7,540 bases of DNA. Origin: Caldisericota bacterium. GTDB taxonomy: Bacteria > Caldisericota > JANLFM01. The first letter of the stretch is position 1. Each line of letters opens with the position of its first letter. Both the position numbers and the translations under genes were made by a program. The notes under the pieces are model-generated. The model searched no databases, was not told the DNA's origin, and was given only the letters and a program-made list of their open reading frames with translations. Below, piece by piece: positions 1 through 3,842 of the stretch. The stretch lies in assembly GCA_024655865.1 (NCBI GenBank), contig JANLFM010000006.1:81649-89188 (forward strand). Direction: 5' to 3'.

Positions 1-118
1 AGGGCACTGTGGTAGTTGTGGCTGCGGTAGTGGTCGTGTCTTCAGCCAGGGTCATCACCGGCGCCAGAGTGCAGAGCATGGCGGCAGTTACGAGCAGTAC
101 TAATAGCTTTTTAGCCAA
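1..118 (-). CDS. Secreted protein, N-terminal fragment (runs off the window)
   Basis: The minus strand has an open frame from a TTG at 118 to the window edge, 39 codons, too short to stand out by length. It begins M-A-K-K-L-L-V-L-L-V-T-A-A-M-L, a typical signal peptide: two lysines, a hydrophobic core of about 17 residues, then a plausible cleavage after T-L-A before E-D. A Thr-rich stretch (TTTTAATTTT) follows, as in linkers of wall proteins. The TTG start is chosen because a perfect AAGGAGG lies 10 nt upstream (129-135). The gene follows the SLH gene in the same direction after a 130-bp gap with no clear terminator, so the two may share a transcript. It may be another surface protein, but the functional part lies outside the window and no domain can be named. 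Confidence 0.75.
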   Translation of the reverse strand, partial: MAKKLLVLLVTAAMLCTLAPVMTLAEDTTTTAATTTTVP

Positions 119-215
119 GTTTTTCTTTCCTCCTTCTTTCAAGGATCAGATTTTTCCCCAGCTTCGGGGAAAATGCTTTGGCCTCTTTCGCGGGGCCAAA
201 AAGATTGTTCAGCAT
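111..215 (-). CDS. Possible 34-codon small ORF overlapping the next start
   Basis: An ATG at 215 on the minus strand opens 34 codons ending in TAA at 111-113. An AAAGGAGGG lies 4-5 nt upstream (220-228), a strong but rather close ribosome binding site. The peptide would begin MLNNLFGPAKEAKAF and end with a very basic tail (ERRRKEKLG). Its stop lies 5 nt inside the following secreted-protein gene (TTG at 118), which would allow translational coupling. The ORF spans the two hairpins at 152-200, so the segment could instead be an untranslated leader with structure. A second ATG four bases upstream opens a 26-codon frame, so the reading is not unique. I recognise no family. Confidence 0.28.
   Translation of the reverse strand: MLNNLFGPAKEAKAFSPKLGKNLILERRRKEKLG
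129..135 (-). promoter_or_regulatory. Ribosome binding site AAGGAGG for the partial secreted-protein gene
   Basis: On the minus strand AAGGAGG ends 10 nt before the TTG at 118. It fully matches the anti-Shine-Dalgarno sequence and is the main reason for accepting a TTG start there. Confidence 0.75.
152..200. other. Two adjacent stem-loops in the intergenic leader
   Basis: TTTTCCCC at 152-159 pairs with GGGGAAAA at 166-173 (8 bp, 6-nt loop). TTTGGCC at 177-183 pairs with GGCCAAA at 194-200 (7 bp, 10-nt loop). Neither is followed by a clear U run in the minus direction, so they are poor intrinsic terminators. They lie between the SLH gene and the partial secreted-protein gene and could affect RNA stability or translation of the latter. 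Confidence 0.5.
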
Positions 216-248
216 CCATCCCTCCTTTCTCAAAATTAAATTCCCAAC

Positions 249-1397
249 TTACGGCGTAGCTCCCTTTAAAAGGAGAGCATCGTAAAGGGAAGAGAGGGAA
301 ATGGCCACCTCTCCCCTCAAAGCCTCCTCCTCGGGAGCGAAGTCCGGATACAGAAGTCCGTGCTGTGCCCCTACCACGCTGTACCCGGCAAACCAGGGGG
401 CATCCTTGAGGTAAGCCTGAGCCGCCTGAGCTTCCCGCTCAAGCCCCGCTGCCCGCACTAAGGCAGCGATCACCTCTTTGCCTGTAATATATTCTTCGGG
501 ACGGAAGGTTCCGTCCGGGAAGCCTTTCATTAAACCCTGAGCGGAAACGAACTCCACCGCCTGATACGCCCAGTGCTCCGGGGGAAGGTCACTGAAGGTC
601 ACAAAAGTTGCGGGGGAAGTGGGCGGGGTGTAGTTGGCTTTGGTCAATGCTCTAGCCAGGAAAGCGGCAAACTCCGCTCTGGTCACTTTGTTTAAGGGGC
701 GCATGGTGCCATCGGGATAGCCCTGCATAATCCCTAAATCAGAGAGCTTGGTCATCGCCTGGGCATACTGGGAGGGGATTTCCTGGACGAAAGCTGTAAC
801 CAGCGGGGAAAAGGCGCTCTGGTTTCCCGCCTGGTCCTGAGCGTAGTAAAGGATGTCGTGCCAGCCGGGGGAGAGGTTCAAGCTGCCCGTGGAGAAGCGC
901 CCGTTCTCGTCTGCGGGAACATCCTTCACGGGCACGCTGTCCACGAGGACAAAGACCCTGGAGCCCGGTTCAGCCGATCCATAAAGGAACTGGGTGGGCT
1001 CGAGGATCACCGAGGTGCTCTCGGGGAGGGGAGCAAGAGGGGGAACGAGGTCTAAAGTGATGTATAGCGTGGAGCTGAATTCGCTGTAGGAGCCGTCGGG
1101 GAGAAGGGTGCGGGCCCGGAAAGCGTTGATTCCTCCGGGGATTTCCTCAAGATAGGTGATCAGGGAGAACTTTCCGTTCTGGTCAGTGTAGGCCAGCCCC
1201 AGGGAGCGGTCGTTGCGGAAGACCTCCACAAAGGAGAAAGGCGGAGCCTGGCCCTCAATAGTGACTATGAGCTGGTTGGTAATGGGAGTAGAAGTAAAAA
1301 GGACGGGTGTCGCTCCTTCCTGCGCTTCTTGGGCGAAGGCGGGAAGGCTACCCGCTAAAACAAGTACCAAGATTGTGGCCACAATCCTGAATTTCAT
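249..1397 (-). CDS. Secreted protein with two Ig-like domains and three SLH repeats
   Basis: This 382-residue protein has a signal peptide (residues 1-22, basic MKFR, hydrophobic core, cleavage after A-F-A). Two Ig-like beta-sandwich domains follow at about 30-115 and 116-205, each with the D-x-N-G-[KR]-F-S strand typical of bacterial Big-type repeats (TDQNGKFS near 71-78, ADENGRFS near 162-169). SLH repeats lie at about 211-251, 268-319 and 329-375. SLH1 has GYPDGTMRP and the TRAE motif, and SLH2 has WAYQAV and GFPDGTFRP. SLH3 is degenerate, and SLH2 and SLH3 lack TRAE. SLH trimers usually bind pyruvylated secondary cell-wall polymer, so this is a wall-attached structural or adhesive protein with no visible catalytic domain. 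The ATG is fixed by an in-frame TAA 12 nt upstream and by the signal peptide. No good Shine-Dalgarno precedes it, only GTGAG touching the ATG. Transcription is probably sigma-54 dependent (site at 1415-1429). Confidence 0.94.
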   Translation of the reverse strand: MKFRIVATILVLVLAGSLPAFAQEAQEGATPVLFTSTPITNQLIVTIEGQAPPFSFVEVFRNDRSLGLAYTDQNGKFSLITYLEEIPGGINAFRARTLLPDGSYSEFSSTLYITLDLVPPLAPLPESTSVILEPTQFLYGSAEPGSRVFVLVDSVPVKDVPADENGRFSTGSLNLSPGWHDILYYAQDQAGNQSAFSPLVTAFVQEIPSQYAQAMTKLSDLGIMQGYPDGTMRPLNKVTRAEFAAFLARALTKANYTPPTSPATFVTFSDLPPEHWAYQAVEFVSAQGLMKGFPDGTFRPEEYITGKEVIAALVRAAGLEREAQAAQAYLKDAPWFAGYSVVGAQHGLLYPDFAPEEEALRGEVAISLSSLYDALLLKGATP

Positions 1398-1414
1398 CTC
1401 ACTTAATTAAAGTA

Positions 1415-1429
1415 GCAATATCCGTGCCA
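1415..1429 (-). promoter_or_regulatory. Sigma-54 (-24/-12) promoter for the Ig/SLH protein gene
   Basis: The minus strand reads TTGGCACGGATATTGCTA. This matches every conserved base of the sigma-54 consensus YTGGCACG-N4-TTGCW, with GG at 1427-1428 and GC at 1415-1416 at the right spacing. By the usual geometry transcription would start near 1403, leaving only about 5-6 nt before the ATG at 1397. Sigma-54 promoters need an enhancer-binding protein bound 80-150 bp upstream; the inverted repeat at 1530-1549 lies at that distance. No activator gene is in the window. Confidence 0.75.
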
Positions 1430-1529
1430 AAATTTCAGAAAAGGGGTGGTGGCGATTTTTTCGCTTTGTATGGGAGGGGTGTAGGTCGGAAAAAATTTCC
1501 TCCACTTTGGGGCATCTTGGGGACATGGT

Positions 1530-3380: not shown

Positions 3381-3385
3381 TTCCC

Positions 3386-3404
3386 GGGGTCAGGTCTTGC
3401 AATC
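3386..3404 (+). repeat. Dispersed repeat B, copy 1 (GGGGTCAGGTCTTGCAATC)
   Basis: This 19-bp element sits 19 bp upstream of the prmC GTG. It is a perfect inverted copy of 3641-3659 and a one-mismatch inverted copy of 3824-3842. A shorter same-orientation copy is at 7466-7479. I recall this motif as a common dispersed element in many bacterial genomes, possibly linked to RAYT-type transposases, but nothing in the window proves the link. Confidence 0.85.
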
Positions 3405-3625
3405 ACACATTTTCCGCCGGACTCCCCTAACTCAATTCAGCACAGGGATACTGGGCAGGAAGGCTCATTTTGGGTTTAAGCCTTGGGAATTCGGCGAATT
3501 AGCTTTTATCACAGGAATATTCAGCGCAAGAAGGGTTAATAAGGGGAGTAGAAAAGAGGGGAGGAGAACAGGGGCCTCATGGCCAGACATAAAGGGAGTT
3601 AACCGACCGGGAGTCCAAGTTGAAA
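3405..3625. other. Segment enclosed by inverted B repeats, no recognisable gene
   Basis: The segment between the inverted B copies carries no convincing ORF. A 94-codon plus frame (3397-3681) starts and ends in repeat sequence and has no ribosome binding site. A short palindrome AATTCGGCGAATT lies at about 3488-3500. With the flanking 19-bp inverted repeats the whole unit (3386-3659, 274 bp) resembles a non-autonomous element. No target-site duplication can be seen. Confidence 0.4.
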
Positions 3626-3659
3626 GGGTAGAAATTGTTGGATTGCAAGACCTGACCCC
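3626..3659 (+). repeat. Extended repeat B, copy 2 (34 bp)
   Basis: These 34 bases recur at 3809-3842 with one change (C to T in AGACCTG/AGATCTG). The unit is GGGTAGAAATTGTTG followed by the 19-bp core GATTGCAAGACCTGACCCC, which is the inverse of copy 1 at 3386-3404. The two direct copies are 183 bp apart. Confidence 0.9.
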
Positions 3660-3808: not shown

Positions 3809-3842
3809 GGGTAGAAATTGTTGGATTGCAAGATCTGACCCC
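3809..3842 (+). repeat. Extended repeat B, copy 3 (34 bp)
   Basis: This is the direct repeat of 3626-3659 with a single C-to-T difference in the core. It lies 30 bp upstream of the -35 box of the promoter for the glycosyltransferase operon. Confidence 0.9.

Follow-up and report, generated by a model that had tools for sequence, protein, structure and literature searches.

Organization of the predicted SL1-SL2 operon

We analyzed a 7,540-nt stretch of DNA (the window) from G000, a Caldisericota/Coprothermobacterota-type MAG (96% complete, 63 contigs, 1.82 Mb), together with the other members of a family set of five draft MAGs (G000-G004). The minus strand of the window carries SL1 (249..1397), which encodes a 382-aa exported protein in which SLH repeats come after two Ig-like domains, as expected of a wall-anchored surface protein. 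Pfam searches returned SLH (90 bits, two domains) and Big_6 (31 bits). The N-terminus reads as positively charged and hydrophobic, as in an export signal, and residues M1 and K2 were invariant in four orthologues. A modest-confidence structure model built from these four orthologues (mean pLDDT 62) showed two beta domains (pLDDT about 80-88); the SLH part after them came out helical and poorly modelled. Codons 5-10 of SL1 contain a perfect 16-bp palindrome, GATTGTGGCCACAATC (1371..1386, minus strand), which was present in G001 and absent in G003 and G004. We also considered and rejected a conserved hairpin or thermosensor at the 5' end, around the start codon, as the fold was found only in G000 (z -2.4), being weak in G001 and absent in G003 and G004.

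Downstream on the same strand, SL2 starts at a TTG codon at 118 and leaves the window (1..118). This second operon gene encodes a giant SLH protein of 1395 aa in G001, up to 1458 aa in G003 and at least 1186 aa in G000, the last value being a lower bound set by 10 N in the contig just outside the window. SL2 followed SL1 on the same strand in all four genomes that carry SL1 (G000, G001, G003 and G004), with SLH in both proteins, and the two genes would be co-transcribed; SL2 was not found in G002 or outside the family. Both proteins have an acidic composition (pI 4.6 and 4.3), which is at most compatible with a surface-lattice or major-surface-protein role. An earlier note on this DNA had described a single S-layer-type Ig/SLH gene as the regulatory target. 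The SLH and Big_6 domains were indeed found, but the target is an operon that includes a much larger SLH protein, probably the principal component of the S-layer or sheath.

The SL1-SL2 junction carries two ribosome-binding-like elements. SL2 has its own Shine-Dalgarno sequence, GAAGGAGGAAAG (125..136, minus strand; -12.2 kcal/mol), unlike SL1. In all four genomes this was preceded by GGAGGGATG, located 68-98 nt before the SL2 start; in the window the element reads GAAAGGAGGGATGG (216..229, minus strand), stands at the 98-nt end of this range and could be an extra SD-like element or a tiny ORF. Since the short frames that follow the ATG of GGAGGGATG had no common sequence, a stabilizer resembling a STAB-SD appears more likely than a conserved peptide. 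A GC-rich stretch lies between GGAGGGATG (229-216) and the SD of SL2 (136-125) on the minus strand, giving a conserved double SD arrangement.

A consensus -24/-12 element upstream of SL1

The minus strand from 1430 down to 1395 reads TTGGCACGGATATTGCTACTTTAATTAAGTGAGATG. It contains the sigma-54 -24/-12 promoter sequence TTGGCACGGATATTGCT (1414..1430, minus strand), within which TGGCACGGATATTGC (1429-1415) matches the consensus exactly, with the -24 GG doublet at 1428-1427, the -12 GC doublet at 1416-1415 and every conserved position filled. The full-consensus match described in the earlier note was recovered, with the two doublets correctly spaced. DNA of the window's size should contain about 0.007 exact matches by chance, and the six remaining matches to the motif in the window carried 2 mismatches each, a number at chance level. 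No sigma-70-like promoter was found near SL1 on the minus strand.

Genome-wide, exact TGGCACN5TTGCW occurred at 2 sites compared with 1.7 expected by chance in 1.82 Mb. We therefore dropped the motif count as proof of a promoter: it proves nothing alone, and position and conservation carry the evidence. Across the five family genomes, the relaxed pattern TGGCAYN5TTGCW gave 21 sites compared with 7 for the reversed control.

Several repeats were observed elsewhere in the window. Two identical 26-nt copies of AAAAATGGGGACTGTCCCTATTTTTT lie at 1570-1595 and 2511-2536, one of them about 150 bp upstream of the sigma-54 promoter; the core of this sequence also occurs elsewhere in G000 (L073, L159) and in G001 (L038, L068), as in a dispersed REP/MITE-like repeat. 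Elements of the type GGGGTCAGGTCTTGCAATC (3385-3414, 3626-3659, 3809-3842 and about 7467), partly arranged as inverted pairs, recall repeats near REP-associated transposases. Just after folB, at 1918-2291, there is a cluster of imperfect direct repeats with units such as TATGCGTATAGGGCTTTTCTGGGCGCTGAA and spacings of 19/38 and more.

Conservation of the element and its distance to the start codon

A scan with a single sequence returned no named relatives, and an alignment scan returned three. In GenBank, the three relatives that carry SL1 are MAGs under the label Caldisericota or Coprothermobacterota. The motif was TTTTGGCACGGATATTGCT in G000 and G001, CTTTGGCACGATTCTTGCT in G003 (56% protein identity) and TTTTGGCATCGCAATTGCT in G004 (47% protein identity), in each case 17 nt from the ATG, so that all four genomes with SL1, down to 47% protein identity, retained both the motif and the exact gap. 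The GG/GC doublets, whose loss in close relatives the earlier note had named as a refutation, were intact in all four orthologues. Between G000 and G001 the motif was identical at 20/20 positions, whereas blocks more than 10 bp upstream matched at only 1-5 of 10 positions, and among the four genomes the upstream DNA had diverged beyond alignment. The conserved letters were those of sigma-54 promoters (TTTGGCAY and TTGCT), while the interior of the element varied. We find this comparative evidence convincing that 1430-1414 on the minus strand is, as far as sequence can tell, a genuine sigma-54 promoter.

Predicted transcription start and SL1 leader

At sigma-54 promoters, the first transcribed nucleotide normally lies 12 nt past the -12 C. 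With this C at 1415, the predicted +1 falls at 1403, leaving a predicted leader of 6 nt (1403-1398, AGUGAG). The spacer between the -12 C and the ATG at 1397 comprises 17 nt (1398..1414, minus strand) and had this length in all four orthologues. The start near 1403 and the leader of about 6 nt proposed in the earlier note agree with these predicted values, and the exact 17-nt gap in four genomes supports them. Such a leader differs from one of 0 nt, and SL1 would have to be translated from it.

The results of the anti-SD calculations, which used the general CCUCC core and may differ from those for the organism's own 16S tail, showed that the SL1 start lacks a Shine-Dalgarno sequence in all four genomes (+0.1, -0.5, +1.6 and -2.8 kcal/mol). 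In G000 the duplex energy of +0.1 kcal/mol compares with a median of -8.0 kcal/mol across 241 genes, each taken at its best start, which bears out the absence of an SD noted earlier.

Putative leaderless genes in the lineage

Among 67 sampled genes without an SD, TANNNT stood at exactly -12 to -7 in 11, with other positions averaging about 1.35 (Poisson P about 2e-7). These results suggest that leaderless messages of a sigma-70 class are translated in the lineage. Loci of this class in G000 include L138, L142, L149, L153 and others, and from their translations we take some of these starts to be those of lepA, dnaE and dcd. The earlier note had regarded a leaderless sigma-54 message as unusual. 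By this signature, leaderless or near-leaderless messages are not unusual here (11/67), and what stands as unusual is a sigma-54 promoter supplying a short leader. On this sequence evidence, the distinctive feature of SL1 is its sigma-54 promoter at a fixed distance without room for an SD, rather than leaderlessness.

Sigma-54 machinery

The earlier note had proposed looking for rpoN and enhancer-binding proteins in the genome, and both were found. G000 encodes one complete copy of rpoN, with AID, CBD and DBD present and the RpoN box ARRTVTKYRMELG. It also encodes a single strong sigma-54 activator, an NtrC-type response regulator (receiver, AAA+ and Fis HTH) with GAFTGA present, although in draft MAGs this count of one could be too low. 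The activator gene follows a gene for a membrane histidine kinase (PAS/HisKA/HATPase), and this pair was orthologous in 5/5 family genomes, with identities of 50-81% for the kinase and 64-87% for the activator. About 13.5 kb separate the activator from the S-layer operon in G001. The search for an activator site upstream of the promoter gave no significant candidate, the best shared word being TTGTCAA (P = 0.09).

Three further observations concern these genes. G003 has a second activator (L105, contig C143); a consensus sigma-54 site lies shortly after it, in front of a response-regulator gene that the contig end truncates. At L072 and L073, with gene names read from translations, gap, pgk and gpmI follow rpoN directly, a YvcK-like gene is its neighbour, and the kinase-activator pair follows pfkA, so both sigma-54 components have glycolysis neighbours.

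Other sigma-54 sites

The second exact site in G000 precedes a gene for an exported L,D-transpeptidase (YkuD). This site was also exact in G001 and G004, carried one mismatch in G002 and was absent in G003 (4/5 genomes), indicating that the regulon is not fixed. Its distance to the ATG varied (38, 52, 40 and about 59 nt), and the L,D-transpeptidase starts likewise lacked a good SD. We looked for more regulon members among the G000 sites with 1 mismatch and found none: almost every one fell within an open frame, and those few of intergenic appearance had no clear gene just downstream. The regulon is probably a small one devoted to the envelope, comprising the S-layer operon and the L,D-transpeptidase.

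TGGCAC/T..TTGCA sites were also located directly upstream of genes in further families of the phylum (L202-L211). Unlike the SL1 site, these precede genes for E1 dehydrogenase, PCC-domain or small proteins, several with an AGGAGG-type SD, and their gap to the start is mostly about 19-26 nt rather than 17 nt (L207 has an alternative ATG with a 6-nt gap). Because the L,D-transpeptidase gaps vary and the sites in other families have longer leaders, the constant 17 nt is, in this sequence comparison, particular to the S-layer gene among the sigma-54 sites compared. In one of these families (f5; L202-L205), sigma-54-like sites were observed before genes for membrane proteins of 68-70 aa that have a conserved tail, ...HLYFL or ...HIYFL, and a perfect SD.

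Proposed mechanism and alternative explanations

Taken as a whole, the data are very probably best explained by a sigma-54 promoter that drives the SL1-SL2 operon, is fired by an activator and gives SL1 a near-leaderless start. No observation contradicted this reading. RNA polymerase with sigma-54 would sit on the -24/-12 elements, waiting. Upon a signal, the NtrC-type regulator, phosphorylated by the adjacent membrane kinase, would open the promoter through ATP hydrolysis, and the same system would probably also fire the L,D-transpeptidase promoter as part of a small wall-and-coat programme. Transcription would begin about 6 nt before the SL1 ATG, and SL1 would be translated without an SD by a leaderless or short-leader route, which some sigma-70 genes of the lineage seemingly use as well; SL2 would use its strong SD signals. 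A bolder version, which we put forward tentatively and hold to be less likely true than false, treats the promoter and start codon as one fused element. The 17-nt gap would then force SD-independent initiation at SL1, with SL2 relying on strong SD and STAB-SD-like signals, and one two-component/sigma-54 switch would set both the amount and the SL1:SL2 ratio.

A chance match to the sigma-54 consensus, without promoter function, would accord with the 2 exact genome matches against an expectation of 1.7. It is nonetheless highly improbable, given the same motif at equal distance in three further genomes with diverged flanks, and the only other exact G000 match is also upstream of an envelope gene and conserved. 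Conservation by itself names no binding protein, and the block might instead be bound by a different regulator or act at the RNA level, for example as a repressor operator over an unrecognized sigma-70 promoter. We give this possibility just as little credence: the fixed letters and variable interior are those expected of -24/-12 elements, the genome contains a complete sigma-54 and an activator, and the early mRNA has no conserved fold.

The alternative that deserves most attention, though we consider it unlikely, accepts the promoter but gives SL1 an ordinary leader, with translation starting elsewhere (such as the GTG at codon 6) or transcription starting further up. In its favour, the codon-6 GTG in G000 is preceded by a weak AGG, and the start at 1403 is a prediction only. 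Against it, M1 and K2 do not vary among the orthologues, K2 belonging to the positive N-terminus needed for export, and each of the four genomes has the same 17-nt distance from the element to this ATG. That this ATG has no SD, and that the minus strand upstream has no sigma-70-like promoter, likewise speak for the near-leaderless start from the sigma-54 promoter.

A sigma-54 promoter at SL1 would couple S-layer production to a signal sensed by an activator, in a lineage about which little is known. With one sigma-54, one activator and two evident promoters, the regulon may be small enough for a complete solution. The fixed near-leaderless gap offers a natural test of whether sigma-54 promoters feed leaderless translation, for which nearby sigma-54 sites with longer leaders in the same genomes could be used as controls.

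Comparison with known systems

The literature searched contained no known role for sigma-54 in this lineage and no paper in which sigma-54 and a leaderless S-layer transcript come together, though this does not prove that none exists. Francke et al. 2011 (PMC3162934) reported that site numbers fail to separate genomes with and without sigma-54, while location upstream of starts does, and S-layers are never mentioned there (0 occurrences). The chance-level site count in G000 agrees with that result. The SL1 promoter resembles those of that study in its consensus, its presumed need for rpoN and an activator, its position 0-200 nt upstream and its envelope target. It differs in its targets, here an SLH/S-layer operon together with an L,D-transpeptidase, in the one or few activators of the lineage and in leaving no room for an SD.

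The junction element resembles the STAB-SD of cry3A (PMC4113751), an SD-like element some way upstream of a very highly expressed gene with its own SD. Here, however, the element sits between two operon genes, and the likeness is one of sequence arrangement only. Zheng et al. 2011 (PMC3160421) described leaderless genes with TANNNT about 12 bp before the start, the signature also seen in G000. SL1 is like these genes and those of Deinococcus (PMC12340547) in that its promoter abuts the ORF and no SD is present, but unlike them its promoter is of the -24/-12 type and its predicted leader is 6 nt, not 0.
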